A stretch of DNA of 40,170 nucleotides, from assembly GCF_000511385.1 (NCBI RefSeq), contig NC_023143.1, forward strand, positions 1-40,170, in the 5' to 3' direction. This DNA is from Phaeobacter gallaeciensis DSM 26640. Its GTDB lineage: Bacteria > Pseudomonadota > Alphaproteobacteria > Rhodobacterales > Rhodobacteraceae. The position numbers and the translations under genes are program-made. Below are positions 7,655 through 38,316 of this stretch, piece by piece (position 1 is the first letter of the stretch; every line of letters begins with the position of its first letter). The notes below the pieces were generated by a model. That model saw nothing but the letters and a program-made list of their open reading frames with translations, searched no databases and was not told the origin of the DNA.

Positions 7655-7707
7655 TGCAGCTATCCTTCATTGCTTTGTGAGGGGGGTGTGCCGTGCAGGC
7701 AGATGCC

Positions 7708-7725: not shown

Positions 7726-7813
7726 AGCAGTTTTGGCGCGGGTCCAAGAGGGCCAGCGCGTGCGGTGTCAGATTTTCAGGAAAAGTGGGGCGGCGTCAGA
7801 ACAACGCCCGGTG

Positions 7814-8230: not shown

Positions 8231-8240
8231 GAGAGCCTCC

Positions 8241-9377: not shown

Positions 9378-9401
9378 TGTTCGTTCTCCTAAGATTTTGG
9401 G

Positions 9402-9710: not shown

Positions 9711-9725
9711 AGGGATTTCCTTCCT

Positions 9726-10025: not shown

Positions 10026-10037
10026 TTCAGGTCTCCT

Positions 10038-11180: not shown

Positions 11181-11181
11181 G

Positions 11182-16131: not shown

Positions 16132-16134
16132 CTT

Positions 16135-21018: not shown

Positions 21019-21021
21019 TTT

Positions 21022-21905: not shown

Positions 21906-21914
21906 GAAGCACCT

Positions 21915-22217: not shown

Positions 22218-22507
22218 CAAATGAAACGCCGATAAGGGGCCAGCAAGATACGGACTAAATCGGGCAGGGTGAGCAGATCGCGATCGCATGTCTCTTGATC
22301 TTCATAGAGCGCTTTCACCAATTCGATCACCGCCTGCTCCAGATCGGCTGGAAGACCTGACGGGTAGATTGCAGCAAGATCCGTCCGCAAATACCCAGAG
22401 ATCGCGACCTCGGCAGCGGCTGTCAGACGCTCCAGTTTTCCGTCATCGAAGTCAAAAGAGAGAGCGTCAACTCCCTCTTTCACTGTTGCAAGGGGCGTGA
22501 GGGTCAC
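22217..22507 (-). CDS. Head-tail connector adaptor (gp6-like)
   Basis: This 96-aa helical protein has DLEQAVIELVKALYEDQE (about residues 55-72), typical of HK97 gp6-like connector proteins that dock below the portal. It overlaps both neighbours by one and four bases, so translation is coupled. The C-terminus APYRRFI fits the usual ...LL.PYR ending of this family. It forms the first ring between portal and tail. Confidence 0.82.
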   Translation of the reverse strand: MTLTPLATVKEGVDALSFDFDDGKLERLTAAAEVAISGYLRTDLAAIYPSGLPADLEQAVIELVKALYEDQETCDRDLLTLPDLVRILLAPYRRFI

Positions 22508-23040
22508 TTCTTAGGCCCACTCGTAGAACCGGAGCCGCCTTTTCCACCATCAGCAGGGACCGCATGTTTTTTTGCGTCTTCGAGGGCGGCTTCCAACTGC
22601 TGCATCTGTTCCTTGACCGTCGAGACTTCAGCTTTCAGCCCCGAAACCTTTGCCTCTTGCTCAGACTTTTCAAGCTTGATGGCGCTCAGCTCCGCCTGGA
22701 GATCCTTAACCGCGGCCTCGGCTTTTTCCGCACGTTCGGTTTCAGCTGCGATGCTGACAGTGTTCACCGCACCTTCGCCTTCTGCTTTGGCTCCGATCTC
22801 TTTAGAGATTTCTTGCACCGTAGATTGTGACCGCTTTTCCATATAGGCTTTGACTTCGCTGTCCGTGAGAATTGCGCCCACCGGATCAACTGTTTTGCGG
22901 CCAGTATCGTCTTTCCCTTCAGTCAATGAGAGGATGACTGCTTGATGGGCTTGCTTGGTTTCGTCCAGTTTGTAGACAATGCCAGGACGAAAGGTGCCAA
23001 TCTTGGTGCGACGGGTGCTCTTTACAATCACGTTTTTCAT
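22504..23040 (-). CDS. Coiled-coil structural protein after the capsid gene
   Basis: This is 178 aa from the ATG at 23040; a longer frame upstream is not supported by composition. The N-terminal 75 residues are mixed, followed by a long coiled coil (about 90-160, with E, K, A and L heptads) and a glycine-rich tail ending GSTSGPKK. No family is recognised. Its place after the major capsid suggests a head decoration, scaffolding or head-completion protein. Confidence 0.7.
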   Translation of the reverse strand: MKNVIVKSTRRTKIGTFRPGIVYKLDETKQAHQAVILSLTEGKDDTGRKTVDPVGAILTDSEVKAYMEKRSQSTVQEISKEIGAKAEGEGAVNTVSIAAETERAEKAEAAVKDLQAELSAIKLEKSEQEAKVSGLKAEVSTVKEQMQQLEAALEDAKKHAVPADGGKGGSGSTSGPKK

Positions 23041-23113
23041 ATCTTGCACTCTATTTTTGATGTGAATTCGCCCCCTTTTTTGGTCAGGGGGCGATAAGTC
23101 GTCTCTGGCAGGA

Positions 23114-24409
23114 TTAGGCGAAGGTGAAGTCGCCTTTGACCGTCGCCAACGGACGCTTGTGCGCAAGAAGCTGGCGCTTCTTTGCCTGGATGGTCACCAT
23201 TCCTTCGATGAAGTTGTTCCCGTGCTCGGTCGAGATTTTCACCTCAGTCTGTTGCCGATCGTACAGGGTGGAAGACATAGCCAGGTCGCCGCCGAGCCAC
23301 TCGCCCTTGGACATGCTGTTGCTTTCAACAACGTCGCGGCCCCAGAGAACAGGAGTGGCGACACCATCTGGACGGGAGAAAATGTAGTCGCCCACTGTGT
23401 TTTTCGTCATCTCAATACCTGCCCAATCGATCGGGTTGAGGACGAAAGAGGTCAGGAAATGATCTTCCAGAGCAATCTGCAGAATTGCCAGTCGCAGGCG
23501 ATCGATACGGCTTGCATTGGGCAGAGACGCATCTGCTGCAACGAAATTGGGAGCGACACTGATCAGACCGAGATGATTTTCCCCAATACCGTCGCCCGCG
23601 AGAATCTGCTTTTCTTCTTCCAGATCGAGACCGTAACGCAGCTCTGTATCTATTTCCGCTTGCAGATAGTCAGCGTCTGCGAGGCTCTCTTCGGAGACAT
23701 TGATGTGGTGGCCGATCTTGCGAACCGTATCTGTGACCTTGGTCCAGCCATAGTTCGATTCCGGTGTTGCGCTCCCTTCGGCTACCATCGCCGCCGCAAT
23801 CGCACGGATTACTTGCTTGCGGTAAGTGTGGGCATCGCTGTTGACCGAGCCACGGTTCAACAAGGATGCAATCAATAGGCGGCGCTTCGGCATGCGAACA
23901 GGATCACGCTCCTCTTCGCGATAAATCAGGCCACCCGCCGACCCGTCCGCTGTGGTGATCGCATTTTGGATGTCCAGGCGCACGGCGCTGCCGCTGAACG
24001 CCTTGACCTGGTCATGCTGGGCAACAACCGCTTGACCCAAAGACATCGGACCGTCAGCACCATCACGAGACCCAGCAGCAAAGTTCTGAGCCAGCTCGAT
24101 GTTCTGAGCGGTAAGCCCTTCGACTTTGTCCGTCAGAGATTTCAGAGAGTTTGTCAGCTCTGCCTGGTTTGCAAGAAGCTTGTCAGCAGACGCCTTGGTT
24201 TCGGCGCTCACTTCACCAGATTTCTTGGCTTCTTTCAGAGCGTCTTCAGCAGTGCCTTTGACTTCGCTTTCAATCTTACCAAGGGCATTCTTGATTTCTT
24301 TCAGCATCTCTGCGTCAGAGGCGTCGTTGCACGGAATGCTGAGCACGTTTGCCGGGCACGACGAAGCCAGTGCCGCCACCGAAATGGCGGGCATCATGAT
24401 CTGTTTCAT
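23114..24409 (-). CDS. Major capsid protein (HK97 fold)
   Basis: This 431-aa protein has a coiled-coil N-terminal delta/scaffold region (about residues 30-112) that the upstream ClpP-like protease would remove, followed by the HK97-fold capsid body (about 125-430). RDPVRMPKRRLLIASLLNRGS (about 167-187) and the HHINVSEESLADADYLQAEI segment are typical of this family. A GGAG ribosome site lies 7 nt before the ATG. It follows the protease by 13 bp, the usual order portal-protease-capsid. Confidence 0.92.
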   Translation of the reverse strand: MKQIMMPAISVAALASSCPANVLSIPCNDASDAEMLKEIKNALGKIESEVKGTAEDALKEAKKSGEVSAETKASADKLLANQAELTNSLKSLTDKVEGLTAQNIELAQNFAAGSRDGADGPMSLGQAVVAQHDQVKAFSGSAVRLDIQNAITTADGSAGGLIYREEERDPVRMPKRRLLIASLLNRGSVNSDAHTYRKQVIRAIAAAMVAEGSATPESNYGWTKVTDTVRKIGHHINVSEESLADADYLQAEIDTELRYGLDLEEEKQILAGDGIGENHLGLISVAPNFVAADASLPNASRIDRLRLAILQIALEDHFLTSFVLNPIDWAGIEMTKNTVGDYIFSRPDGVATPVLWGRDVVESNSMSKGEWLGGDLAMSSTLYDRQQTEVKISTEHGNNFIEGMVTIQAKKRQLLAHKRPLATVKGDFTFA

Positions 24410-24422
24410 TTTAGGTCTCCGT

Positions 24423-25274
24423 TTAAGAAGTGTGTTGGTTCAAAAGAGCAAGGGCACCTGCCAATGCTGCGTTTTCAGGCTCAGCGCTCGGCGTGTCCTG
24501 ACCAGCAGCGCCGGGCGTGCTGGCATTCAGTGCCGCGAGCAGTTCGCGGCGCATCGATCGTGGGGCAGATCCCCGCGCCATCAATAGATCAGCTTTTTGT
24601 CTGGCTGCTGATGGACTGATCTTAAGTCCGTCCTTGACCTCTTGGGACACCTGGTCAGCCCCCAAAAAGTCGTCTGCAAACCCTTCTTCGACAGCCTTCG
24701 CCCCACCAAGCCAAGTCTCTTTGTCGAGCATTGCTGCAATGTCTGCTGACTTGAGGCCAGTGCGGGCAACGTAGATGTCAACCAATGCCTCATCGAATGG
24801 CGTCAGCCACTCCGCGACTTGTTTGAAGGCATTACGGTCACCTGCCGCAACCACCCAAGTGTTGTGGATCATGATGAACGCGGATCGCATGATATGGATC
24901 TCGTTTGCGGCCATGGCCAAAACCGAAGCAGCGGATGCCGCCAAACCGAGAACCTTCACCGTGACCGGGGCCTTGTGCTCTAAAAGCAGGGAGTAGATTG
25001 CCAGCCCTTCGAAGACATCTCCACCGGGTGAGTTAACATAGACGTCAACGGGATTGTCTCCAATATTCCGCAGGGCGGCGGAAATTCGGGCAGCTGTCAC
25101 ACCGTCCTCGTAATACTTTCCGATGGGACCGAGGATCGAGATTGAGTGCTCTCCCAAACCTTCTGCTTTTGGCGAAAGATCAGGGTTCCAATTTTTCAGG
25201 GCTTGCGGGGTCAAATCCGAGCGGACGCCCGGCAAGGCGTTGACCGGAACAATCGGCATTGCAGTCTTGGTCAT
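24423..25274 (-). CDS. ClpP-like prohead maturation protease
   Basis: This 283-aa serine protease cleaves the capsid scaffold domain. NSPGGDVFEGLAIYSLL (about residues 81-97), LGLAASAASVLAMA with Ser114 as nucleophile and MIHNTW with His137 are the ClpP-fold catalytic motifs. The C-terminal 60 residues are extra and may be self-processed. The gene overlaps the portal stop by 4 bp. Confidence 0.9.
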   Translation of the reverse strand: MTKTAMPIVPVNALPGVRSDLTPQALKNWNPDLSPKAEGLGEHSISILGPIGKYYEDGVTAARISAALRNIGDNPVDVYVNSPGGDVFEGLAIYSLLLEHKAPVTVKVLGLAASAASVLAMAANEIHIMRSAFIMIHNTWVVAAGDRNAFKQVAEWLTPFDEALVDIYVARTGLKSADIAAMLDKETWLGGAKAVEEGFADDFLGADQVSQEVKDGLKISPSAARQKADLLMARGSAPRSMRRELLAALNASTPGAAGQDTPSAEPENAALAGALALLNQHTS

Positions 25275-26503
25275 TTTGCGTTCTCTCCGAGCGTTTCTAG
25301 GGGAGCCATTGCAGTTTGAGCAAAGAGCCTGTCTGCAGATGGATCGGGATGTTTCTGCATACCGAGCCGTTCCCTGCGCTCATTGGCCGTCATCGTGCCG
25401 CTGGTTGCCATCTTCGAAACAAACTCGGCTCTCGCTTTGGCATCCATCTGCATGAAAACATCGCGATCAAAGCGATAGATTGAGCGACGGCGCTTTTCTG
25501 GTGACACCAGATCTTTCAAGATCCTTTGCTCCACTCGTGATGCGAGAGGGTTGATGCCGAGGGTAAGCCAATATTGCAGGATCGTTTCAACGCCGGTTCC
25601 CCAAACGGTTTGACCTTGGGCAAAGTGCCCTACGATCACCGGCGGGGTTCCAAACCAACGACAGATGTCTTCAACGCTGAACCGACGTGTCTCTAATAGC
25701 TGCGCATCCTCAGGGTTCAGCTGCATTGCGCTCCACTTCAAGCCAGCCTCAAGGACTAGGGTTTTACCGGCTTTTGAAGACCCAGTGAAATCTATCAGCA
25801 TTTTCTGAAGTTGAGCGCGTTGTTCCGGGTTCAAAACCTGATCACCACTCAAGACACCCGCCGCCATCATCGCATTCGAGAAAATGCTAGACGCCGTCTC
25901 ATCTGCCGCAAGGCCAGCACCGATAGAAACTGCGCCATAAGCAACCGTGGACATACCCAGCCCGTCGCCCGCGCCGAAACCACGCATGTGGAAAACCTTG
26001 TCTTTTGGCAGAACTTCCCATTTTCCTCGATCATAGACCCCGTATTTGAAACCGCTGCGCCCCTTCGTTCTCATCGGCTGGACGCCGAAAAGAGGCTGAA
26101 GACCAATCAGTTCTTTGCCGAGGTAAATCTTCTCCGCAAATGCATTGCCTTTTAGGCTAATCTGGGTGGACATCCCCTCCCAGAACTCTTGCGCGGTTTG
26201 ATCGGCGTTTGGACTTTCAGCCAAAACGCCATAGAGACTTCCGTCGTTTACCTCGATCTCTTTGCCTTTGCTGTCCTTTTCGAAGAACTTGACAGGCATG
26301 CCACCAATGACCTGGGCGTTTTTTCTCACACAGTCGAACACCACGGAACTGGCCAAGGAGCTATTTGCCGTGACTGTTTTCCCAGATGGCGTAGAGATGC
26401 TTCCAGACTGCAAAGCCTCTGAAGATCCACCAAACAGCGACTGACTTGTCGACAGGATCTCGTTTCGGACGCCATTAATAGCGGCGCGCACCAAATTCAT
26501 CAT
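25271..26503 (-). CDS. Portal protein (HK97 family)
   Basis: This 410-aa protein forms the dodecameric DNA channel at the head vertex. Family features include LASSVVFDCVRKNAQVIGGMP (split; residues 50-70), RFSVEDICRWFGTPPVIVG (about 278-296) and the C-terminal MTANERRERLGMQKHP (about 374-389), the usual portal signature. It overlaps the terminase by 4 bp and the protease by 4 bp. Confidence 0.92.
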   Translation of the reverse strand: MMNLVRAAINGVRNEILSTSQSLFGGSSEALQSGSISTPSGKTVTANSSLASSVVFDCVRKNAQVIGGMPVKFFEKDSKGKEIEVNDGSLYGVLAESPNADQTAQEFWEGMSTQISLKGNAFAEKIYLGKELIGLQPLFGVQPMRTKGRSGFKYGVYDRGKWEVLPKDKVFHMRGFGAGDGLGMSTVAYGAVSIGAGLAADETASSIFSNAMMAAGVLSGDQVLNPEQRAQLQKMLIDFTGSSKAGKTLVLEAGLKWSAMQLNPEDAQLLETRRFSVEDICRWFGTPPVIVGHFAQGQTVWGTGVETILQYWLTLGINPLASRVEQRILKDLVSPEKRRRSIYRFDRDVFMQMDAKARAEFVSKMATSGTMTANERRERLGMQKHPDPSADRLFAQTAMAPLETLGENAK

Positions 26504-28227
26504 ACGACCATCACCGGATTGTTGAGGAAATCACCGAGGTTCCCGATTTGTCGAGGCTGGGGGTTCCAGCTCATCAATTGGACCGTGTTGAACATGGCCA
26601 TCAGCGGATCGATCTTGGCTGATCCTGACTGCGCCTTGGTCACGATAACTGCGTTGCCTCTTGCTTCTGTTTTTGCATTGCCAACGCAGAAGGCCATCAT
26701 CCTCTGACCACAATGGACAAGGGTTCCGTTCTTCAGCTTGACTGGCGCAGCTTTGATTGCAGCGTTCAGCTTGTAGCCCTGCGAGATCGCAGCCATATCC
26801 TCGATCGCAAAACCTGCCTCGGTGAGAGCATCAACGATCTTTGCAACCCCTTCCGGGTCCATGCCGATGCCATTTTCTTCCGGTAACAGTCCGAGATCTC
26901 GCAGACGAACGCAGTAGTCTACGATTTCGGGGAAGGCTTCCTCCTCAAGATTGCCGACGAGTGTGAGATCGCCAGCTTCTCTGAGGGCTTCGAGTTCTGG
27001 CTTGATCTCCTTGCGGAGTTCCAGAACCATTTCATCCGCCCAGGCTTTGCTCCAGAACTGCCACCGTTTGGTGTCCCGGTGACGGCCCATAATACCGAAA
27101 CCCAAAAGGTCGTCCAAGCCGCCCCCATCTACCCCAGCAACGCAAACATCCGAGGTGGACAGGATGTCTTCAAGGGTGATGTCGCGCGTCGCTTGCTCCC
27201 AGAACAGGGCACCAACCCACTTGCCGGTTCCCAGCCCGATCGAAGGCTCGACATTCAGGTGTTGCGAAATGAACAGCGCGACAGCTTCGGGGCCTTCGCG
27301 CTCAGCCTTGCGCATGTCGTTGATCAGATCCTCCAAGTGGACGGATCGACCAAGGTTAGGGTTCACAAGCGGCCAGGTCTTTGGATTGCGCCAAGACTTG
27401 TTTTCCAACATCTTCTGCGGCAGCTCATACAATACCGCAAGCATCGGCAGGCGGATCTCTCCGTCCCTCACCGCACGCGCTGTCGCTAACTCTTTTTCAA
27501 ATTGGCCCGTTGGCCGGTCCTTGGATTGGGTCGTGATCTGGAGGAAGAAACCCTCAGGCCGCGATTTCAACCCGCCACGCAGCTCGATGAAAACGTCTGG
27601 TGCTTTGTGTTTACTACCCAGTACGTGCGTTTCATCCACGAGGATGTAACAGCCCTTGGAGCCGGTAACGACATCCCCGTCAGCGGACAGGATCATGATC
27701 GCCGCGTCTGTAACTAGGTGTGTGATTGTTTTTTGGTGGTCCCTGATCTTGAAGACCTTGGACAAGGTTTCATCAAGCTGAATGATCCCCTTCGCTGTCT
27801 TGAATGCGATGCCGGCAATCTTTTGCGTCGGGGCAATCAAATACAACTCGGCCTGCGGGCGTTCATTCATGATCGCCGCAGTAACGATGATCGCCGCTGA
27901 GATTGCCGATTTGCCGTTCTTCTTTGGCACCAACAGGAAGAACTCGCGCAGCATTCGCCGCTTTGTCTCCGGGTTGTAGCTGCCAAATATGACGCGCACA
28001 AAGTCGAGTACCCATTCGTCGCAAATCTCACCGAAAGTGGGAGTGCCGGGAAGGTCTGGAACCTTAAGGCGGCAAAAAATCCGAAGCGCTTTTGCCGCAG
28101 GCGCGTCGAACAGAGGCAGCTTGGGGATCAGAGACAGGCCATTTCGGATCCGGTCTTCCCAGTCTGTAACCGAGGTGTCCCACTCTGGGTCGATGCCAAG
28201 TTCTTCATCTCCTATGAAATCAAGCAT
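26500..28227 (-). CDS. terL: Terminase large subunit
   Basis: This is the DNA-packaging motor and nuclease, 575 aa. Walker A-like VPKKNGKSA is at about residues 100-108, Walker B and catalytic acid in ILVDETH at 195-201, and the coupling motif in ITTQS near 231-235. The C-terminal nuclease has GVDGGGLDDL with Asp367 as a likely metal ligand. It resembles HK97-type terminases, which go with cos packaging; an HNH gene beside terS supports that. It follows terS with one-base overlap. Confidence 0.93.
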   Translation of the reverse strand: MLDFIGDEELGIDPEWDTSVTDWEDRIRNGLSLIPKLPLFDAPAAKALRIFCRLKVPDLPGTPTFGEICDEWVLDFVRVIFGSYNPETKRRMLREFFLLVPKKNGKSAISAAIIVTAAIMNERPQAELYLIAPTQKIAGIAFKTAKGIIQLDETLSKVFKIRDHQKTITHLVTDAAIMILSADGDVVTGSKGCYILVDETHVLGSKHKAPDVFIELRGGLKSRPEGFFLQITTQSKDRPTGQFEKELATARAVRDGEIRLPMLAVLYELPQKMLENKSWRNPKTWPLVNPNLGRSVHLEDLINDMRKAEREGPEAVALFISQHLNVEPSIGLGTGKWVGALFWEQATRDITLEDILSTSDVCVAGVDGGGLDDLLGFGIMGRHRDTKRWQFWSKAWADEMVLELRKEIKPELEALREAGDLTLVGNLEEEAFPEIVDYCVRLRDLGLLPEENGIGMDPEGVAKIVDALTEAGFAIEDMAAISQGYKLNAAIKAAPVKLKNGTLVHCGQRMMAFCVGNAKTEARGNAVIVTKAQSGSAKIDPLMAMFNTVQLMSWNPQPRQIGNLGDFLNNPVMVV

Positions 28228-28790
28228 CAGTGCATCCCGCTTCCGGGCTTGATGTCATCACCCCAAAGGTCAGAAGAGACGCCTTGATCCGCGACGGCAT
28301 TGTGGGCATCCAACTTCTCCTGTGCCTTTTTACCGGGAGTGTCTGGCTTCTTTGCAGCTGATTTTCTCTGAGCCTCACCGAGCCGACCAGTGGTCAGGGC
28401 CAAATCGCTCTTGGCGATGAGCTGATCCAATAGTCGCATCGCACCAACGTTCCCTTTGTTTGCTTGTTCCATTGCGATCATGAAACGATGTGCGTCGAGG
28501 CGATCTCTCTGGATGGCCCGCGCTTTCAGTTCTGAAAAATAATAGGTTCTCAGCGTAGGCTGGGAGATGTGCAGGGCGGCGGCGATGCGCTCGTTGCTCC
28601 ACCCCAAAGACAGTAACACTATGACTTTATTACGATTTTCTTGAGTTGCGACATGGGCGGGGCGACCTCTCCGGCCATTTGGAAGCCGAACAGGATCACC
28701 AAAAAGGTCAAATTCTTGATCATCCAAGAAAAAAATCTCCCAATGGGGGGAAGGCGGGTCTAGCCACTTGGCCGTTTGGCGACTTTTCAC
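28227..28790 (-). CDS. terS: Terminase small subunit
   Basis: This 187-aa protein recognises the packaging site. Residues 53-80 (KVIVLLSLGWSNERIAAALHIS) form a helix-turn-helix, followed by helical oligomerisation segments and a charged tail. The start is GTG at 28790; the GGAGGG ribosome site is separated from it by A plus a run of eight G, and the first G of GTG makes the run nine. Slippage in that run would alter the spacing. No other start is in a better position. Confidence 0.82.
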   Translation of the reverse strand: MKSRQTAKWLDPPSPHWEIFFLDDQEFDLFGDPVRLPNGRRGRPAHVATQENRNKVIVLLSLGWSNERIAAALHISQPTLRTYYFSELKARAIQRDRLDAHRFMIAMEQANKGNVGAMRLLDQLIAKSDLALTTGRLGEAQRKSAAKKPDTPGKKAQEKLDAHNAVADQGVSSDLWGDDIKPGSGMH

Positions 28791-30338: not shown

Positions 30339-32222
30339 TCATTCGCCACCGTCAGTGCCATTTTCGGGATTGCTCCCGTATCCGGGGAGAAGACGCGCGG
30401 GAACGACAAGGCCGCGCTGCGTGACACCTGCGACACGCATAGTGCCGGGGTACGGCTGCACATCCGCGATGGTCTGCAGCGCAGCCTTGTGACCGCCACC
30501 ACGCCACCTGGTGCCCGCCAGCGCCTTGTTCAGCGCAGAGTTCTCAGCATTGGCCACAAACAGTCTCTTTTGGCCAACACCCTCACCAAACAGGCGCAAA
30601 CCCAGACGCGCCAACAGAAAGCCATCGCTCGTACTGGGACTATGCGAGGCAGAGTTGAGCAGCATGATCTCTTCTGCCACTGTCTTCACACCCCCGTGTT
30701 CCTTATGCAGTACGCCGCCGTAGATGGCGTTCAACAGGCGCTCACCCTCGCCAAGCTCATCCGCTTCTTGCGTCTCTTCTATAAGCGGCTGAATGAGGGT
30801 CTTGGCTCGCTCGATCCGTTCCGGCAGGGCTTGATCGGTGACAGGATCAATCAGCGGCTCATCGAACAGCATCAGATCCCAACCGGCCAACAGAGTGCCG
30901 ATTGTGTCGCCATCCCGCGATCGCCCGCCCATGCTCTGCACCAGCGCATTGTATGCGCGAAACGCTGTATCCCAGCGCTTAGGGGCGAGGCGCAACATGC
31001 GCCGCCAGACCGCTGGCCCAAGCGCTTTTGCATCTTGCTCCAGTTCGTCAAGAAACATTGCGGCATCGGTCGGGTTTGCCGAGGCCAGCCGGTCACCAAG
31101 GGTGAGCATCACAAAGCGTGACCGATCCTGCGGGGCCATGCCGCCGGGGATGATCGACCCCAGCAGACCAGCCCCATATAGACCAAAGCGGATCCCCGAA
31201 TGGTCAGAGGTGCCCTTTTCCATCTGGGCACCCTCAGCGCCTGACATCAGGCGGAACATCGCAATGACATCCTCAACGCCCCCGCCATTCTCAGACTTTT
31301 CAGCCTCATCGAAGATCCGCACAGCCGCCATGCGGTTGGTGGTCTGGCGAATGCTGGCCGCTGAGGCGCTATTCTTGACGCCAACAGACATACCGCCCAG
31401 AAGAAAGGAGATAATCCGCAACAGGGTGGATTTACCGCTGCCGTTCTTGCCGTTGATCCACAGGTGGGTGCGCCAGTCTGGATACTGCCCCAGGACCGCC
31501 TGTCCGATCCATGCAATGATCAGATCACCGGCATTGTCGCACTGCCAATTCCAGAAATTGGTGATCCGCTGGGACAGATACTGAACCTCATTGACCGGGA
31601 TCTCGGCCTTGGCAGGCCCCTTGATGGCAGGCACCGCAGGATAGAGGGCACCGGATACCATCCGCCCCCGGCGATCCTCATCAGGGCTGACGTTCAGATT
31701 CTCACCAAGATGCACAACAGGGTATCTGGTGGCACCGCGCCAAGTGCCGGTGTGACGGATGGGCATGTAGCGATCAAAGAGAGGCAGCAGGCCACATGCC
31801 TGCATCAGCTTATCGCCCGCCTTTGCGGCACTGAAATCCGTGTCACGCTTTCCCGGCTCTGCGATATCGGCAAGATGGCGCATGGGATCTTTGACACCAA
31901 CCATGAGCGCAACGAGGCTTGATCGATGACTGAGCGCCCCGGCTGACATTTCTGTCAACTCACCCCGCGCAGTCAGAAAGTAGAACTTACCCCCGGCAAC
32001 ACCCAAAGGCTGGACCGGAAACCCCGGCGGCAAGATATCATCGCCCAGAACCTCACCAGCGCCGACATTGCCATCGGCTGCGTCAACATCATCGAAAGGG
32101 TCGGCGGAGCCTTCCCCCGAGTGAGCGGAGCCAATCCCGATTTTTTCGCTATTTTCATCACCTGATGTGATGACTTCCCGGCGGCTTATCACGCCTTGAA
32201 CCTCTTCGATCCCGTCACTCAT
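30339..32222 (-). CDS. Replicative helicase (phage D5/DUF927-type)
   Basis: This 627-aa protein unwinds DNA for phage replication. Walker A WINGKNGSGKSTLL (residues 255-268) and Walker B VRIFDEAE (301-308) are clear, followed by the middle domain with arginine finger candidates. Residues 1-130 are a disordered or primase-linked N-terminus. It overlaps the primase gene by 8 bp, forming a split primase-helicase pair. It resembles superfamily 3 helicases of alphaproteobacterial phages, but the family assignment beyond a P-loop helicase is tentative. Confidence 0.85.
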   Translation of the reverse strand: MSDGIEEVQGVISRREVITSGDENSEKIGIGSAHSGEGSADPFDDVDAADGNVGAGEVLGDDILPPGFPVQPLGVAGGKFYFLTARGELTEMSAGALSHRSSLVALMVGVKDPMRHLADIAEPGKRDTDFSAAKAGDKLMQACGLLPLFDRYMPIRHTGTWRGATRYPVVHLGENLNVSPDEDRRGRMVSGALYPAVPAIKGPAKAEIPVNEVQYLSQRITNFWNWQCDNAGDLIIAWIGQAVLGQYPDWRTHLWINGKNGSGKSTLLRIISFLLGGMSVGVKNSASAASIRQTTNRMAAVRIFDEAEKSENGGGVEDVIAMFRLMSGAEGAQMEKGTSDHSGIRFGLYGAGLLGSIIPGGMAPQDRSRFVMLTLGDRLASANPTDAAMFLDELEQDAKALGPAVWRRMLRLAPKRWDTAFRAYNALVQSMGGRSRDGDTIGTLLAGWDLMLFDEPLIDPVTDQALPERIERAKTLIQPLIEETQEADELGEGERLLNAIYGGVLHKEHGGVKTVAEEIMLLNSASHSPSTSDGFLLARLGLRLFGEGVGQKRLFVANAENSALNKALAGTRWRGGGHKAALQTIADVQPYPGTMRVAGVTQRGLVVPARLLPGYGSNPENGTDGGE

Positions 32223-33390
32223 CGTTCTGCCCTTCTGTCTTCTTTTTATGTTTGCCGTTCAGCACGTCGTTCATGTCGAACCCCGGAACACCCGGCACCA
32301 GCTCAGCGCGAAGCCCAGGCCGCAAAGCCTGGGCACGTTTCAATCCGCAGAGCATCATCGCCCGCGTTCTTGTGGGGTTGCTGTCGCCGTCCTCGATGTA
32401 GATCAGCCGCTTCACCCATGGTGGCGGCAGGAACGCATCAAAATCGGGGTTCAAATCCGGCTCACCTGACCACCGCCGCCCCTCTACCTTCAGCATCTTT
32501 CCAGCCATGTTGCCGAGGTCGACACCGCACCAGAAGGCGGCATTCTTGAGGTCATCAGGCCGCGCCAGATAGGCGCTAAGGGTCGTCTCATTCCCCTCGC
32601 CCACTACCATTGTATCGGCACCCTCAGGCGTAATCAGGGGGATGAAATTCCCCTGTTTGGACCCGCAGACCAATTTACATGGGTAGTCCTCGCACTGATG
32701 AACAATCCGGGCCTTGCCGTGTGGCGGATTGATATCAACCCACGTCTGATGAATTGCCATCACCTGACCGGTCTGCCAGTCGACAATAGGCGCGATCATG
32801 CAGGGGCCACGGTGCAGGACGATGTTATCCCCACCGATTTTCTTGACGTAAGGGTGGTCCAGCAGGAATTTCAGCGGGGTTGGTATCTCTTCGAGGGGGA
32901 GACCGCGCGCGCGCAAGTACGCCCCCACAACACCCCGCCAACCGTCAATCCCGCGATCGTAGAACCGGCGCGCGTCATCGATGCGCGTTTGCCGCCAGCG
33001 ATTGGTGCGCGCCTGGTCCTCTCTGGCCTTTCGCTCCGCAATCGCGCGACGGCGCTCAGCCTCAGCCGGATCAAGATCCACGTTCAGATCACCGCAAAGC
33101 ATCGACAGTGCATCGGCAAAGCTGGCATTCGTCACTTCGCGCACCAGGGCGATTTGATCACCGCCCTTGATCCCGCATTGTCGGCACAGAAATTTCTTGC
33201 TGTGCTTGTTCACATTGAACCGGTCGCACGGCCCACTCTTGGGGTCGTGCCCCTCCGAGCCACAGAGAGGACACGGGCCAAAGAACTCACCCGACCGTTC
33301 CGTCAAGCCATAGATACCCAGCTTGTTCAGAACTTCTTGCACGGGGATCAGCTTGGCCTCTGCAATACGGGGATCATCGGGAAAGCTCAT
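32215..33390 (-). CDS. DNA primase with zinc-binding and Toprim-like domains
   Basis: This is 391 aa from the ATG at 33390, which overlaps the previous stop (ATGA); an upstream start would lie inside that gene. The zinc motif has Cys40, Cys43, Cys69 and Cys72 (CPLC ... FLCRQC), as in the CHC2 family. A Toprim-like domain follows, with GEGNETTLSAYLA (Glu about residue 256) and LIYIEDGDSN (about 340). It would make primers for the helicase encoded next. Confidence 0.87.
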   Translation of the reverse strand: MSFPDDPRIAEAKLIPVQEVLNKLGIYGLTERSGEFFGPCPLCGSEGHDPKSGPCDRFNVNKHSKKFLCRQCGIKGGDQIALVREVTNASFADALSMLCGDLNVDLDPAEAERRRAIAERKAREDQARTNRWRQTRIDDARRFYDRGIDGWRGVVGAYLRARGLPLEEIPTPLKFLLDHPYVKKIGGDNIVLHRGPCMIAPIVDWQTGQVMAIHQTWVDINPPHGKARIVHQCEDYPCKLVCGSKQGNFIPLITPEGADTMVVGEGNETTLSAYLARPDDLKNAAFWCGVDLGNMAGKMLKVEGRRWSGEPDLNPDFDAFLPPPWVKRLIYIEDGDSNPTRTRAMMLCGLKRAQALRPGLRAELVPGVPGFDMNDVLNGKHKKKTEGQNDE

Positions 33391-33695
33391 GCGCGCCCCC
33401 TGCCCTTCAGCCACTCATCGATCAGCGTGTTTGCCGCAAGCCCGTGATACTTTTTGACCTCGATCGACAGCGCCAGCTCAGCGAGGGACCGGGAGCGCGC
33501 ATTCTTGGCCAGCACCAGGCGTTCTGCCGCATTGCGCAGGGGCAGCACCTGCGCAGAACAGGCGTAGCAATCGGCCAGAATCTCACCCAACCGCTGCAAC
33601 ATCAGATCATCATCGCTATTGGGCACCGCAGACATCGACAACCGGGTGCAGACGTGGACCAAGGCCCGCTGCGCAATCATGGGATTTTTGCTCAT
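33387..33695 (-). CDS. Small hypothetical protein of the replication operon
   Basis: This 102-aa helical protein is charged, with no signal or membrane segment. It overlaps the next gene (primase) by 4 bp (ATGA) and the preceding one by 4 bp. No family is recognised. It may be a helicase loader or accessory factor by location, but this is a guess. Confidence 0.7.
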   Translation of the reverse strand: MSKNPMIAQRALVHVCTRLSMSAVPNSDDDLMLQRLGEILADCYACSAQVLPLRNAAERLVLAKNARSRSLAELALSIEVKKYHGLAANTLIDEWLKGRGRA

Positions 33696-33991
33696 TGCAG
33701 ATCCGCCCTGTTTTGCCAGTCGTATGTCGGCAGCTCACCGCCCAGCTGATCCGCATAGGTCTGGACCGCTTCGGCAAGATCCTCGCCCGCCTTTTTGCGA
33801 TTGACGCGCACCGTTTTGAGGAAGGTGATGGTTGCGGCCTTCATGATCCCACTGATGCGGTCACCGGCGTCCAGCTCCAGCGCCAGCGTTGCCAACCGCC
33901 ACATATCGCCCTGCATGGCCTGCCCACAGCGCGCCCGATTGGCGACGACATAGGCATGCAGGCAGAATTCAACCTTGGGATCATGCGGCAT
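33692..33991 (-). CDS. Small hypothetical protein downstream of methyltransferase
   Basis: This is 99 aa from the ATG at 33991, 11 bp inside the end of the methyltransferase gene; a longer frame would run far into that gene. It is mostly helical, with a cysteine pair near the start and a basic stretch FLKTVRVNRKKAGEDLAEAV. No motif is recognised. The tight overlap with both neighbours supports it being real. Confidence 0.68.
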   Translation of the reverse strand: MPHDPKVEFCLHAYVVANRARCGQAMQGDMWRLATLALELDAGDRISGIMKAATITFLKTVRVNRKKAGEDLAEAVQTYADQLGGELPTYDWQNRADLQ

Positions 33992-34760
33992 GGGCCAGCC
34001 CCCGGATGTTATTGGCCAGCCGGTCCCGATCCCACGCGGCGCGCACCTGGGCGAACCCATCCGCATAGGCCGCATGGACGGCCTCGCACGCGCGGTCAAA
34101 GAACCGCGGTTCCAGCTCCACCCCGATCGCGCGCCGGCCAAATGCCAGGGCGGCGATCAGCGTGGCAGCACTACCCGCAAAGGGATCGAGCACCAGACCG
34201 CCCAGATTGCTGGATTGCAGCACATACAGCGCCATCAGCGACGTCGGCTTAGCGGTCGGATGCCAGTGGTTTTTCGGGGCAGCGCAGGCAAAGCGCGTCT
34301 TGGCTCCGCCATCGGCGATATGCCGCGCCCTGCCCTTCCACAGGTAATGCGTGAATTCCTGACAGCGTAGATAGAACGGCTGGCGGGTAACGGCCCCCTT
34401 GTCCCAGGTTAGCAGCTCATGGTGCTTGAACCCGCCCGCCTCAAACGCGATCTGCGACCGCGCGACGTGCTTCGAATTGGTCATCACATAGGCGTCGGCA
34501 TCCTCTTTCAGCGCAGCGAAAATCGGCGCCGGCATCTTTGCCCAGGGCAGCACCTGCATCAGGTCGCCCTTGTTGTGGTATCGATCCGGGTGAAACTTGC
34601 CGCCCATGGTCTGGCCTCGACCACCCGACGTCAGCCGGTAGGGCGCATCGGTCACGCATAAATCGGCCTTCTCTTCCAATTCGGGGAGAACCGCGCGCAT
34701 ATCGCCCTCATACAGGATGCAGTCGCCGATCACTTCCTTTGCAACCCATGCCGATGTCAT
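33981..34760 (-). CDS. DNA adenine/cytosine-N4 methyltransferase (beta type)
   Basis: This 259-aa protein has the catalytic motif DAPY (residues 38-41, a variant of DPPY), and then HPTAKP (about 167-172) and the AdoMet site LDPFAGSAATL (191-201). This order, motif IV before motif I, defines the beta class (CcrM-like). No restriction enzyme lies nearby, so it is an orphan methylase, perhaps for evading host restriction or timing replication or packaging. The target sequence cannot be read from the protein. Confidence 0.9.
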   Translation of the reverse strand: MTSAWVAKEVIGDCILYEGDMRAVLPELEEKADLCVTDAPYRLTSGGRGQTMGGKFHPDRYHNKGDLMQVLPWAKMPAPIFAALKEDADAYVMTNSKHVARSQIAFEAGGFKHHELLTWDKGAVTRQPFYLRCQEFTHYLWKGRARHIADGGAKTRFACAAPKNHWHPTAKPTSLMALYVLQSSNLGGLVLDPFAGSAATLIAALAFGRRAIGVELEPRFFDRACEAVHAAYADGFAQVRAAWDRDRLANNIRGLAHAA

Positions 34761-35017
34761 GAGCGCACCAACAGATCTAGGGTCGCGAGGCTATCATCAA
34801 CCGGCGAGACAAAATCACCAGCACGGCCCCGACTGGCAGAATTACTCTTGGCCGTCTTGCGATACATGCCCGTCCAAGCACGCGCCCGCGTGATGTTTCG
34901 GCATGTTGCAACGCTCGCACCCGTAAACCCTGACATTTCGCTAAGGGTGCATTCTCCGCCCGTGGTCTGAATCAACCAATGGATCTGATAGGCGATCCGC
35001 TCAAGTCTGATGTTCAT
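34757..35017 (-). CDS. Small HTH-like protein heading the early operon
   Basis: This 86-aa protein opens the minus-strand early operon. Residues 1-50 have a winged-HTH-like feel (RIAYQIHWLIQTTGGECTLSEMSGFTGASVATCRNITRA), with a basic tail. A ribosome site (AGGACAG) lies just before the ATG, and a strong terminator lies 15-47 bp before it (35032-35064). It could be an early regulator, for example one that allows read-through; the function is not known. Confidence 0.68.
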   Translation of the reverse strand: MNIRLERIAYQIHWLIQTTGGECTLSEMSGFTGASVATCRNITRARAWTGMYRKTAKSNSASRGRAGDFVSPVDDSLATLDLLVRS

Positions 35018-35064: not shown

Positions 35065-35209
35065 AAGGTCAACGTGGGAGTGAATGGGGGCCACCTGCAG
35101 GCGCGCCTGCCCCGGTCGGCGTCTGGAAGAGGATGACTGGCCTCATCGCCTGCGGTGTTCGAGATATTGGCCTCTAAGAAAATACAGAGTTCCGAATGCG
35201 TATTGCGCA

Positions 35210-35238
35210 TTGACAGACCGCATACGCACGAATTTGAT
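35210..35238 (+). promoter_or_regulatory. Promoter of the lipoprotein gene
   Basis: TTGACA (35210-35215), a 17-nt spacer and TTTGAT (35233-35238) fit a housekeeping promoter. The predicted start is near 35245, leaving a short leader with the ribosome site GAGG before the ATG at 35268. No phage operator of the TCCA type is seen here, so expression in the lysogen is likely. Confidence 0.6.
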
Positions 35239-35267
35239 ACGCGGCGTTTCAACCTTGAGGATTTCCA

Positions 35268-35618
35268 ATGAGACTTATGCTCTGCCTTACTGCCGCTCTT
35301 CTTTCGGCTTGCTCTTATTCCGTTCCCGTGAACGGTCAATTTGATGGCGCGCCCGCCCAGGGCACTGCCACTGCAAGCCTCGCGGGGGGCAGTTTCAAAG
35401 TGCTCAACACCAGCGGTCTGAGCTGCACGGGCACCTATGATGCGAATAGCACCGCAATCACGATTCAAGCGCCGGTCTCTTGCACCGATGGTCGCGTAGG
35501 AAATGCGATCATAACAAGAAAAACCAATCTTATCTCCGGCACCGCTATAGTGAGGCTCAACGACGGCACCACAGGGGAGTTCGTCTTTGGCGACCTTCAA
35601 TTCGGAGAAGAATTCTAA
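35268..35618 (+). CDS. Small secreted lipoprotein (moron)
   Basis: This 116-aa protein has a signal peptide of about 14 residues with lipobox LSAC (Cys15), then a small beta-rich domain with two further cysteines (about residues 51 and 68, in LSCTG and VSCTD), a likely disulfide. It is isolated on the plus strand amid minus-strand early genes and has its own promoter, the pattern of a lysogenic-conversion (moron) gene. Phage lipoproteins in this position often block superinfection, but here the role is unproven. The overlapping minus-strand frame (35001-35696) has no such features. Confidence 0.8.
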   Translation: MRLMLCLTAALLSACSYSVPVNGQFDGAPAQGTATASLAGGSFKVLNTSGLSCTGTYDANSTAITIQAPVSCTDGRVGNAIITRKTNLISGTAIVRLNDGTTGEFVFGDLQFGEEF

Positions 35619-35692
35619 AGCGTACCTACGCTGAAAGAGCGCGCTGAAAGGAATCGAACAGAGAGACAGGTTTGCAGAGACATCAAAACGCA

Positions 35693-35962
35693 TCACTCGC
35701 CATCTCTGTCCCGCTGCGCGCGCTCTTTTTTGAGATCCTCAATGGCCTTAAAAATTTGGCTCATCGTGCTTGCGCGAGGGTTTATCTGCTTACCGGTTTC
35801 GATCTCCCGGACGATGTTCAAGTTGTTGTTGCCCGGAATTGCCTTGGCGATAGCATACGACGTCACGCCCAGTTCAGCGACCGAACGAGCGACATACTGG
35901 TGAAACTCTTCACCAGTTGGCATTTGGCCGCTCTTGGGGAAAACTTCGGATCTTTCCGACAT
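35693..35962 (-). CDS. Small HTH regulator, Cro-like position
   Basis: This is 89 aa from the ATG at 35962 (ribosome site GAGGTG 5 nt upstream); the longer frame would begin inside the divergent promoter. Residues 30-62 (LGVTSYAIAKAIPGNNNLNIVREIETGKQ) form an HTH, and the C-terminus is charged. It is divergent from the repressor gene at 36096, with an operator (35990-36005) inside the promoter spacer, so it may be a Cro-like or early regulator. It would be the first gene of the minus-strand early transcript. Confidence 0.78.
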   Translation of the reverse strand: MSERSEVFPKSGQMPTGEEFHQYVARSVAELGVTSYAIAKAIPGNNNLNIVREIETGKQINPRASTMSQIFKAIEDLKKERAQRDRDGE

Positions 35963-35989
35963 ACTCACCTCATCAGATGGGCCTATATG

Positions 35990-36005
35990 TCCATCTTTAG
36001 GTGGA
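35990..36005. promoter_or_regulatory. Operator 1 in the divergent promoter
   Basis: TCCATCTTTAGGTGGA is a near-perfect palindrome (one mismatch). It lies downstream of a TTGACA -35 on the minus strand (about 36007-36012), within the promoter of the 35962 gene; the -10 is not clear. It shares the TCCA...TGGA pattern with six more sites at 36077, 36498, 36537, 37838, 37858 and 37878. Confidence 0.75.
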
Positions 36006-36060
36006 TGTATGTCAAGGTATAACGCGATATAAACTGTATACCTATCAGATTTGCTGGGTT

Positions 36061-36096
36061 TTTCAAATCTCAACTATCCATTTATAAAATGAGGCA
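36061..36096 (+). promoter_or_regulatory. Repressor promoter with operator 2; leaderless start
   Basis: The -10 TATAAA (36084-36089) lies inside operator TCCATTTATAAAATGA (36077-36092). With a weak -35 (TTTCAA, 36061-36066) 17 nt upstream, the transcript would begin at about 36096, which is the ATG itself. The mRNA would be leaderless, like lambda cI from PRM. Only one base separates the GAGG from the ATG, so no usual ribosome site exists. Confidence 0.6.
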
Positions 36097-36410
36097 TGAC
36101 AGCATACAGGCAACAGATCGACAAGTACTGCAAGCTCCGGGGCATATCGCGCCCTAAAGCTGGGCTGGAAGCCGGGTACAACAAGAACTATGTCGCCGAT
36201 CTGGTGAACGGTAAGATCACTCCAACCATTGAAGCGCTCGAAGCTATTGCACACGTTTTGTCAGTACCGCTATCCGTGCTGCTATTCGGTGAAGAAGTTG
36301 ACCCTCAGCTTGCCGAGTTTACGGACAAGTTCCAGCGTCTTGACGCGGCTGGCCAGCACGCTGTCGGATCTCTAATTGAGACTCTTTCTTCGCTTCCCGA
36401 GAAGAAATAA
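36096..36410 (+). CDS. Phage repressor-like HTH protein (no S24 domain)
   Basis: This 104-aa protein has an XRE-type HTH at about residues 14-47 (ISRPKAGLEAGYNKNYVADLVNGKI) and a short helical tail. There is no S24/LexA-type peptidase domain, so it cannot self-cleave. It is divergent from the 35962 gene, with operators at both promoters, so it is the best candidate for the lysogeny repressor that binds the TCCA operators. The start ATG is supported by the promoter geometry for a leaderless message. luxR follows after 155 bp. Confidence 0.8.
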   Translation: MTAYRQQIDKYCKLRGISRPKAGLEAGYNKNYVADLVNGKITPTIEALEAIAHVLSVPLSVLLFGEEVDPQLAEFTDKFQRLDAAGQHAVGSLIETLSSLPEKK

Positions 36411-36497
36411 CGCGATCAATCTCATCCAAGACAGCACGTTTGGCCTGAGAATTCAGCTGCTCAAACCTAGAGAAGTTGGTTAGCAAAGTAAGCTCCG

Positions 36498-36552
36498 TCC
36501 ATTTTTAACTTGATATACCTTTCAGATTGAATATCGTCCATTTTTAAAGTGA
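36498..36552 (+). promoter_or_regulatory. luxR promoter with two TCCA operators
   Basis: Operators TCCATTTTTAACTTGA (36498-36513) and TCCATTTTTAAAGTGA (36537-36552), 39 bp apart, bracket a promoter-like pair TTGATA (36510-36515) - 16 nt - TATCGT (36532-36537). The first overlaps the -35 and the second begins at the -10. A bound protein would shut off luxR. The remaining stretch from 36411 to 36497 holds no gene that I can see. Confidence 0.72.
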
Positions 36553-36565
36553 TTACAACTGATGG

Positions 36566-37186
36566 ATGTGGTTTATGGATCAAGAAGACCTTATGAGCAA
36601 GCTGCACAATATTGCAGACAATGGTGTCGCAATCGGTTTCGGGTTCAGCGAAAGCGGGCAACCAACGGAACACATCTGCACATATCCACAGGCATGGCAG
36701 AACCATTATTGGGAACACAATCTCATCTTCGATGACCCAGTGATTTCATTTGGCGTGCGCAACCTTGGTGCTGTCAGGTGGGATGATGTCAGTAAGGGGA
36801 CAAAGGGCAACGCCGTTCAGCAGGCCAAAGATTTCGGCATGAACAACGGAATCGTAATCTCAATCCAAGTTGACGGCGAGAGGGCGATTGCTGGACTAGC
36901 CACATCTAAGAACCCCTCCGACGCTGAAATTTCAGAAGCACGGATAATTTTAGCTGCTCTTCAAGCTGCGAAAACCGGCAAGCCGCAGATCATCTTGACG
37001 CCTAGGCAACGTGATATCTTGCGCTTGATAGCTGACGGAGCGACGGCAGAGGATGCAGCCCATGAGTTGAACATAGAACCGAGCACCGTCAATTTCCACA
37101 AGCGGCAGGCGCTCCACAGGAACAGGAAGCACGCCAAGAATTTCACCTCGCTGTTAATCAAGGCAGTTCGTGACGCTGCAATATGA
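36566..37186 (+). CDS. luxR: LuxR-type quorum-sensing receptor/regulator
   Basis: This 206-aa protein has an autoinducer-binding domain (about residues 35-130) with Trp44, Tyr48, Asp57, Pro58 and Trp72, at exactly the spacing of the TraR set W57-Y61-D70-P71-W85, and a GIVISI strand at 95-100. A GerE-type HTH follows (144-206, LTPRQRDILRLIADG, then STVNFHKRQAL). The usual Glu of LTPRE is Gln148. It therefore should bind an acyl-homoserine lactone. Translation starts at 36566 or at the ATG at 36575. It is flanked by repressor-type operators and followed by luxI after 74 bp. Lower G+C than the structural genes suggests recent acquisition. Confidence 0.93.
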   Translation: MWFMDQEDLMSKLHNIADNGVAIGFGFSESGQPTEHICTYPQAWQNHYWEHNLIFDDPVISFGVRNLGAVRWDDVSKGTKGNAVQQAKDFGMNNGIVISIQVDGERAIAGLATSKNPSDAEISEARIILAALQAAKTGKPQIILTPRQRDILRLIADGATAEDAAHELNIEPSTVNFHKRQALHRNRKHAKNFTSLLIKAVRDAAI

Positions 37187-37202
37187 TCCAGTTATAACCT
37201 GA

Positions 37203-37220
37203 GTGCTATTGAGCTAGCAC
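37203..37220. promoter_or_regulatory. Candidate lux box before luxI
   Basis: A dyad GTGCTA-TTGAGC-TAGCAC (18 bp) lies between luxR and luxI, the usual place for a lux box, but it does not match the canonical ACCTGT...ACAGGT closely. A TATTTT at 37240-37245 would place it near -41. That start leaves only a 9-nt leader before the luxI ATG, so the assignment is uncertain. Confidence 0.4.
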
Positions 37221-37260
37221 AGGAATACAGTCTCATCGCTATTTTTACGCGAGAGACAAA

Positions 37261-37848
37261 ATGAAAACCTACTGGACGAACACACTGGCCGAAGGCCATG
37301 CTCAGCAACTATTGATTGAACAGTTCAAACTTCGAAAACATCTGTTCGTAGACAAACTGAAATGGCACCTCAAGACTATCAATGGCTTGGAGGCGGATCA
37401 GTACGATACGTTACATGCTAGTTACTGCCTGACAGAAAAGGACGGGAAGCTCATATCGAGCGCGCGGATCATTCCCACAGACACGGATCTTGTAACTAGC
37501 ACCTACATGATAAGAGATGCCGCTCTAGGTAAACTTGAACCCTCGATATCCCAGAATTTATGCACAGGCTACGCCCCGCCCTGCTCTGAAAAAATATGGG
37601 AGGCGACGAGACTGACGGTTCATCCCGATTTACCCAAGACCGAAAAGCGCACCGCCATAGCATCCACGATCGATAGAATGATGATTGAAGCGCGCCGCAA
37701 TGCCATCACCCATTACATTGCTATTGGTGGCATTGACTTAGCGCTTGGGGTGAGAACCGCAGGGTACAACGCGGAGCGTCTCACTGACTTTCAAGAAGTC
37801 GGTTCAGGAAGGGTTGCAATTTATAAGTTAGCCGCCGTCCATTTATAG
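37261..37848 (+). CDS. luxI: LuxI-type acyl-homoserine-lactone synthase
   Basis: This 195-aa enzyme makes an acyl-homoserine lactone from S-adenosylmethionine and an acyl-carrier-protein chain. All the key LuxI residues are present: Arg25, Phe29, Trp35, Asp46, Asp49 and Arg69, at exactly the spacing of the EsaI/LasI set, plus Glu114 and Arg117 in WEATRLTV. The insertion before Glu114 is longer than in EsaI. It therefore looks intact and active; the acyl-chain type cannot be inferred. The stop codon is inside operator TCCATTTATAGCTTGA (37838-37853), so gene and control site share bases. It forms a pair with the LuxR gene upstream. Confidence 0.93.
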   Translation: MKTYWTNTLAEGHAQQLLIEQFKLRKHLFVDKLKWHLKTINGLEADQYDTLHASYCLTEKDGKLISSARIIPTDTDLVTSTYMIRDAALGKLEPSISQNLCTGYAPPCSEKIWEATRLTVHPDLPKTEKRTAIASTIDRMMIEARRNAITHYIAIGGIDLALGVRTAGYNAERLTDFQEVGSGRVAIYKLAAVHL

Positions 37849-37893
37849 CTTGACATATCCACATATAGATGGATATCTCCACTTATCAGGTTA
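37838..37893 (+). promoter_or_regulatory. Triple operator and early promoter after luxI
   Basis: Three operators begin at 37838, 37858 and 37878, exactly 20 bp apart: TCCATTTATAGCTTGA, TCCACATATAGATGGA (near palindrome) and TCCACTTATCAGGTTA (weaker). A TTGACA -35 (37850-37855) overlaps the first, and TATCTC (37874-37879) is a possible -10 at 18 nt. The three-site layout recalls lambda OR. It controls the 37957 gene and the plus-strand genes beyond. Confidence 0.75.
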
Positions 37894-37956: not shown

Positions 37957-38316
37957 TTGGCACATCCCGTTGATATTCATGTAGGAAAGCAAATTCGGAA
38001 ACTGCGCTGGCTGGCTGAAATGACCCAAGCGCAACTTGGCGAAGCTGTAGGCGTCAAGTTTCAGCAGATTCAGAAGTATGAAACTGGGGCAAACCGCGTT
38101 AGCGCTTCCCGCCTGGATGATATCGCTAGGGTTCTGGGCGTTTCCGTTCTCAGCTTTTTTCCTGAAGATAACGCTGATGGGTCGCATGAGTTCACCGCGG
38201 ATGAGATTAATCTCATCCGCGCGTACCGGCAGACAACCGACACCGGGCGGCAGTCTCTCACCAACATCGCCAACAGCGTTTGCAGGAATCTGCCAGTCGC
38301 AATTGCGGCTGAATGA
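37957..38316 (+). CDS. XRE-family regulator (early gene)
   Basis: This 119-aa protein starts at TTG 37957, supported by GGAG 7 nt upstream. A typical XRE HTH spans residues 9-62 (GKQIRKLRWLAEMTQAQLGEAVGVKFQQIQKYE...). The C-terminal half, with TADEINLIRAYRQTTDTGRQSL, resembles the tail of Rhodobacteraceae regulators of unknown role and carries no peptidase. It is the first gene behind the triple operator, so it should be switched by the phage repressor: perhaps a Cro, CII-like or anti-repressor protein. Confidence 0.82.
   Translation: MAHPVDIHVGKQIRKLRWLAEMTQAQLGEAVGVKFQQIQKYETGANRVSASRLDDIARVLGVSVLSFFPEDNADGSHEFTADEINLIRAYRQTTDTGRQSLTNIANSVCRNLPVAIAAE

Follow-up and report, generated by a model that had tools for sequence, protein, structure and literature searches.

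In this study, we asked whether a phage element that encodes both an acyl-homoserine lactone (AHL) synthase and an AHL receptor could use the two to choose between lysis and dormancy, as an earlier note on this DNA had proposed for a LuxR/LuxI pair in what it took to be a phage immunity region. The stretch analyzed, hereafter the window, is the entire 40,170-bp replicon pGal_G40 of the marine bacterium Phaeobacter gallaeciensis DSM 26640T. Our analyses suggest that the locus is quite probably a phage-plasmid lysis-lysogeny switch built on AHL autoinduction, in which the step from anatomy to function rests on analogy with a system described in a recent preprint (Bunsick et al., 2026; PMC13345283, July 2026).

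The carrier of the pair has the following gene blocks:

130..3348, plus strand: repA, repB and repC, plasmid replication and partition (PHROG ParA 9.9e-65, ParB 6e-16; Pfam RP-C 7.3e-29)
5999..28727, minus strand: phage lysis and virion genes (spanin, endolysin, tail, tape measure, capsid, protease, portal, terminase)
30339..35017, minus strand: phage replication (primase-type, CHC2) and DNA methyltransferase genes, the left flank of the cassette slot (94-100% identical in pP18_f)

RepA, RepB and RepC occur here together with primase-type proteins, endolysin, spanin, terminase, portal, protease, capsid and tape measure, and the element is therefore a phage-plasmid, with replication and partition genes and virion genes on one circular replicon. 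Circularity is stated in a table of Frank et al. (2014; PMC4148982), who described pGal_G40 of P. gallaeciensis CIP 105210T as a plasmid/phage hybrid with an AHL synthase, and the record of the P11 plasmid is circular as well. The phage carrier supposed by the earlier note thus stands, but not as a bare prophage, since RepA, RepB and RepC accompany capsid, terminase and tail genes. A 40,170-b sequence in IMG/VR has a LuxI identical to that of the window, and pP11_f of strain P11 (NZ_CP010594.1) differs from the window over the full length of ~40 kb by one mismatch and one gap, the sole gap falling within the hth-xre intergenic region. The annotation of pP11_f lists 54 features, many of them "hypothetical", and includes neither an integrase nor a transfer gene by name. 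No CI/LexA-type repressor was found among the annotated genes and the subset of open reading frames scanned; xre2 and an HTH protein at 4916-5380 are present. Rfam gave no match in the window at the gathering threshold, and no tRNA was found in it.

The pair and its neighboring regulators are arranged as follows:

35693..35962, minus strand: hth, small HTH-like protein, divergent, predicted lysis-side gene (in the position of "hth" of preprint PMC13345283; 53% identical to L056, 43% to L057)
36096..36410, plus strand: xre, Cro/C1-type regulator, first gene of the predicted lysogeny operon (Pfam HTH_3 4.6e-7; 63% identical to L056, 52% to L057)
36566..37186, plus strand: luxR, predicted AHL receptor (Pfam Autoind_bind 9.8e-15, GerE 6.4e-10)
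37261..37848, plus strand: luxI, predicted AHL synthase (Autoind_synth 9.5e-16)
37957..38316, plus strand: xre2, Cro/C1-type regulator of the conserved backbone, directly right of the cassette (Pfam HTH_3 5.8e-12; 87-98% identical in three sister plasmids)

The earlier note had reported two open reading frames within 36566-37848, flanked by repressor-type HTH genes, and both observations hold; of these neighbors, hth had no match in Pfam or PHROG. The annotated start of luxR is the ATG at 36575, which gives 203 aa, and luxI is by inference Gal_04460 of Frank et al. (2014; PMC4148982). LuxR carries PF03472 and a GerE domain, retains all five pocket residues named in that note (W44, Y48, D57, P58 and W72, checked by script) and matches, in sequence comparison, the solved chains of RhlR, SdiA, CviR, TraR and LasR. 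The spacing of the pocket is TraR-like if, as we assume, the TraR counterparts are W57, Y61, D70, P71 and W85. LuxI has the PF00765 domain and the conserved catalytic residues, and none of R25, F29, W35, D46, D49, R69, E114 and R117 varies among the 12 sequences of alignment A1, which matches the LasI and EsaI structures. A total of 47 homologous LuxI proteins were found, of which 12, the window's included, form a full-length group with 44-100% identity. In the family sample, at least 195 of 394 genomes had a LuxI match at 1e-12, the best outside the own plasmid being 35% identical among the matches listed. The host has one more LuxI match, chromosomal and 31% identical across part of the length, which groups in the tree with the chromosomal LuxI of other Phaeobacter genomes. 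Left of hth, at 35268-35618, lies a 116-aa ORF with a lipoprotein-like start and no Pfam match.

The order of the four genes on their phage carrier (hth divergent to the left; xre, luxR and luxI to the right) is that of two integrated prophages of P. inhibens T5, for which AHL-dependent lysogeny was described (Bunsick et al., 2026; PMC13345283). According to that preprint, the AHLs of phages A and B activate their own lysogeny promoters and blocking of the signal induces the prophages; P_lysogeny requires luxI and luxR, P_lysis is repressed in lysogens, and XRE is needed in phage A and mildly repressive in phage B. Ten LuxI types (A-J) were distinguished there, luxI was present in 53 of 93 prophages, and the modules are exchanged; P. 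inhibens DSM 17395 is described there as free of the quorum-sensing prophages.

Exchange is also visible around the window's module when it is compared with three sister plasmids, pP18_f (P. piscinae), pP24_g and pP88_h (both P. inhibens):

35166..37883, no strand assigned: exchangeable quorum-sensing/immunity cassette of 2.7 kb, recognized by homology breakpoints and low GC

The DNA homology to all three sisters ends at 35163-35165 and restarts at 37884. The left flank (29236-35165) shows 94-98% DNA identity to them, for pP88_h in the pieces 29236-29955 and 33214-35165 only, and the DNA right of 37884 shows 89-97%; GC content is 0.493 in the cassette vs. 0.591 and 0.571 in the flanks. Inside the slot, hth and xre of the window had no blastp match in the three sisters at 1e-3, and LuxR and LuxI are 24-26% and 35-36% identical over the aligned part, with the gene order identical. 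These three share one common cassette (LuxI 97-98%), unrelated to that of the window, so the swap may have happened just once. A Leisingera M658 plasmid (L051) encodes a 63%-identical primase, and its cassette slot (7530-8916) holds xre and two overlapping ORFs without Pfam match, possibly a non-AHL switch. In the metagenomic locus L059, a further, different xre-luxR-luxI adjoins a related CHC2/orfB/orfA side, and no xre2 match was found in it.

Outside the slot, the three sisters lack matches to terminase, portal, capsid and tape measure and do match the endolysin, part of the fiber genes and most replication genes; judged by sequence, this may be a backbone family with two particle types. 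RepA and RepB are 98-100% identical to those of pP18_f and 39-48% to those of pP24_g and pP88_h, unlike RepC, which is 96% identical in both; the sister plasmids may differ in partition/compatibility type. Three 110-bp repeats (3740-3849, 4439-4548 and 5396-5505; 84-87% identical), each ending directly upstream of a start codon and containing GTRCTGTAGYAC-like palindromes, look like one promoter common to three genes; they occur in pP24_g and were not found in pP18_f or pP88_h.

Cassettes of the window's own type were identified on other phages. A 38,786-b IMG/VR sequence (L056), whose LuxI is identical to a protein that bears the name of Leisingera sp. ANG-M7, carries one with hth 53%, xre 63%, luxR 72% and luxI 65% identical; it is a Leisingera prophage in which the cassette lies beside an integrase and an O-like replication protein, with other head and tail genes and, in the 13.9 kb examined, no match to the window's rep genes. 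The third copy, on a metagenomic phage of 32 kb (L057), is 43% (hth), 52% (xre), 64% (LuxR) and 46% (LuxI) identical, and its luxI has an internal stop. Between the window and the Leisingera prophage, dN is 0.22-0.44, and dN/dS is unusable because dS is saturated in three of the four genes (1.85 for xre). The refuting case named by the earlier note, a recent insertion in a single strain, does not apply, as the plasmid is found in DSM 26640 and P11 and the diverged cassettes of L056 and L057 have operators in matching positions.

These putative operators, one motif that recurs in all gaps between the module's genes and ahead of the backbone gene xre2, are located at:

35990..36005, plus strand: O1, operator-like site in the hth promoter region, 3' of a minus-strand TTGACA
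36077..36092, plus strand: O2, operator-like site immediately upstream of xre
36498..36513, plus strand: O3, operator-like site upstream of luxR
36537..36552, plus strand: O4, operator-like site upstream of luxR, 39 bp from O3 (spacing 39 in L056, 40 in L057)
37187..37202, plus strand: O5, operator-like site in the luxR-luxI gap, lowest-scoring with the first matrix (L057 has an aligned site, L056 a weak one)
37838..37853, plus strand: O6, operator-like site overlapping the end of luxI
37858..37873, plus strand: O7, operator-like site 20 bp from O6, 3' of TTGACA, just within the right exchange boundary

The TCCA operators that had been noticed near the pair were borne out, in that seven TCCA-N8-TGGA-like sites cluster in the cassette above chance. 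With two patterns that were both composed after the sites had been seen, a 16-mer allowing up to two mismatches gave 12 matches vs. 1.43 expected (0 of 100 shuffles as high), namely eight in the cassette, two of them both strands of one site, and four elsewhere, and a second form gave 17 vs. 5.08 expected (largest shuffle 16). In the matrix scan, a site at 15643, outside the cassette, scored equal to the weakest cassette site. A matrix from the L056 and L057 sites, which is not fully independent, placed the window's seven best hits at O1-O7. L056 and L057 themselves had 12 and 16 strand-wise matches at the threshold vs. 0.05 and 0.15 in shuffles, at places corresponding to those of the window, and the spacing of the right-hand pair is 20 bp in all three (the second right-hand site of L057 being read from the printed sequence). 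The exact consensus occurs three times in the 4.54-Mb host genome, always in the cassette, and its reversed control not at all, counting exact matches only. At the hth promoter and the right-hand promoter, a TTGACA/TTGACT box adjoins the sites in six of six window-type cases, and TTGATA does so in four of six cases of the other cassette type. XRE, HTH and LuxR are the candidate proteins to bind the TCCA-N8-TGGA motif, which could equally be a LuxR box. Between hth and xre, a TTTGCTGGGTTT block (36022-36075) is kept in L056 and L057 and contains the only gap separating the DSM 26640 and P11 plasmids.

Other cassettes carry other motifs. No TCCA-type site above threshold was found in pP18_f, pP24_g or pP88_h, which have ATCATAC-N4-GTATGAT, or a form one base off, in the hth-xre gap, in the luxR-luxI gap and after luxI, with a related TCATAA motif before luxR; TCACC-N6-GGTGA-like sites are common to L064, L059 and L005. 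Among 11 modules tested, which represent about five lineages with several close relatives and were compared with mononucleotide shuffles, nine shared a motif between the left gap and the region after luxI (no more than 3 of 200 shuffles as high). Such a motif was not found in L066 (168/200 shuffles as high) or L061 (52/200), and a universal operator design was rejected on these two. The test of the left gap against the region before luxR gave no more than 2/200 in seven of 11 modules, with 19/200 in the window and 15/200 in L005, and that against the luxR-luxI gap no more than 5/200 in only five of 11.

Could the pair serve the plasmid and not the phage? On Ti plasmids TraR raises repABC copy number, and with RepA, RepB and RepC on the same replicon a TraI/TraR-like pair might control repABC copy number or conjugation in place of lysogeny. 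We consider this improbable: no transfer genes are annotated and pP11_f is typed non-mobilizable, no VirB4/VirD4 is listed for pGal_G40 by Frank et al. (2014; PMC4148982), and the same cassette sits in the integrase-bearing Leisingera prophage, where those rep genes were not matched in the 13.9 kb examined. Copy-number control was also dropped as a candidate on the matrix scan, in which nothing upstream of repA reached a score of 9.

An equally improbable explanation is lysogenic-conversion cargo, whose AHL would mainly steer host quorum sensing, such as antibiotic production, and not the timing of phage lysis. One phage A autoinducer does activate the host quorum sensing of P. inhibens T5 (Bunsick et al., 2026; PMC13345283), and the present host has its second, chromosomal LuxI, but the window's pair sits between divergent regulators with operator-like sites of the cassette's own. 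The lack of any match to the exact consensus elsewhere in the host genome likewise speaks against cargo, and a host regulon was rejected on the same exact-match search. Steering of the host may come in addition to the switch, not instead of it.

Phage LuxR receptors that respond to host signals have reportedly been found, and LuxR could accordingly be an eavesdropper that mainly reads a host signal, with luxI secondary or residual; this is more doubtful still, given that luxI keeps its catalytic residues and adjoins luxR and that the two were kept together in the Leisingera cassette. Least credible is a decaying remnant, with a non-functional switch on an element kept as an ordinary plasmid, for although degraded prophages retaining quorum-sensing modules are described (PMC13345283) and the related L057 luxI is interrupted, the virion, lysis and replication genes scanned in the window are open reading frames, most with family matches, and the plasmids of the two strains are nearly identical.

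If the locus is an AHL-driven lysis-lysogeny switch, LuxI would make AHL in the lysogen, and LuxR with AHL, with or without XRE, would drive xre-luxR-luxI. The resulting regulator would occupy the shared sites and shut the leftward hth and the rightward xre2 promoters, much as CI does on lambda PL and PR. The AHL would report lysogen density and favor dormancy, and loss of the signal or of LuxR activity would release hth and xre2. For lysogeny tied to density, the earlier note finds backing in the complete conserved pair in a control region, in the four-gene order of T5 and in operator-like sites tied to the flanking regulators. Its idea is not the first in print: a 2014 paper had described the synthase on this plasmid (PMC4148982), and a 2026 preprint the arbitrium-like mechanism (PMC13345283). 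PMC6356624, consulted for the AHL of this strain, contains no mention of BS107, and the parts of it covered do not name DSM 26640.

The distribution of such modules extends further. The preprint reports prophage modules only in the Roseobacter clade (PMC13345283); an xre-luxR-luxI module of Roseibium litorale (Stappiaceae, Hyphomicrobiales; L005), whose contig also holds prophage genes (terminase, portal, capsid, tape measure, tail and integrase), falls outside that clade. A reverse-transcriptase-like protein lies between the phage tail region and the integrase of the Roseibium contig (L076, 12123-13676). Rhodobacter phage RcCWillis has, close to a DNA ligase, a LuxI-like "hypothetical protein" (L048, 5974-6483; 29% over 70% of the query), and no LuxR is annotated in the surrounding ~6 kb. 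The tree speaks weakly against xre-associated LuxI having arisen only once: the label needs five changes, at least four of them on starred branches, in a tree that has several long branches and in which eleven database proteins with unknown neighborhood were treated as unlabeled.

The right-hand sites end at 37873, which is 10 bp inside the right edge of the cassette and upstream of the conserved xre2. Because of this position just within the boundary of exchange, a newly arrived cassette would gain control of the backbone's rightward promoter, and signal, receptor and immunity would then, as we propose, change together. A broader proposal, to which we give even chances, is that phage quorum-sensing switches are self-contained plug-in immunity cartridges, in which synthase, receptor, regulators and cassette-specific operators are transferred jointly between phage-plasmids and integrated prophages, an outermost operator just inside the boundary allows immediate takeover of the rightward early promoter of the backbone, and AHL type equals heteroimmunity group in and beyond the Roseobacter clade. 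If true, signal "language" and superinfection immunity would always change together. With AHL-driven lysogeny control, very probably, on a phage-plasmid, copy number and plasmid incompatibility join the lysis-lysogeny choice, and a testable operator code arises, with one cassette-specific DNA motif per signaling type. Should signal and immunity be swapped as a pair, the chemistry of the AHL would tell which phages of a marine community exclude or silence one another, and such switches could be found and classified in genomes by their operator motifs.

How does this switch compare with known systems? The words "operator", "extrachromosomal" and "phage-plasmid" are absent from the main text of PMC13345283, and in the literature on phage LuxI/LuxR, phage-plasmids and AHL, as far as covered, the 2014 genome paper and the 2026 preprint are the direct precedents, and no earlier operator code or phage-plasmid cassette exchange was found. 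The pGal_G40 of the 2014 report (PMC4148982) is the same replicon, and the parts of that report covered do not link it to lysogeny control, LuxR, operators or exchange. Genome G002, with three LuxI matches, one of them beside a Mu-type transposase, is probably P. inhibens T5, with L066 probably phage A and L064 phage B. Phages A and B resemble the window in gene order, divergence, prophage control region, complete LuxI/LuxR and cassette-like exchange. They differ from it in being chromosomally integrated, whereas the carrier here is a RepABC phage-plasmid with its own operator-like motif and a conserved backbone xre2, and LuxI/LuxR are 23-29% identical (against L066 and L064, LuxI 24% and 29%, LuxR 25% and 23%).

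The phage LuxR receptors of Silpe and Bassler, with XRE partners, reportedly read host signals in a lysis-lysogeny circuit; a phage LuxR-type receptor in such a circuit is common to both cases, and those systems are, to our knowledge, without luxI. TraI/TraR is a LuxI/LuxR pair on RepABC plasmids and shares that type of replicon with the window, which differs in having no annotated conjugation genes and in placing the pair in a phage switch. The arbitrium system of Bacillus phages (AimR-AimP-AimX) uses a peptide signal and the AimR receptor. The window has AHL and LuxR in their place, and the scanned switch proteins match LuxR/LuxI, HTH families or nothing, not AimR. What the two would have in common is a signal made by lysogens that favors lysogeny. 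Bunsick et al. (2026; PMC13345283) liken phage quorum sensing to arbitrium, and on our analysis the window's switch would work like arbitrium without being a member of it.
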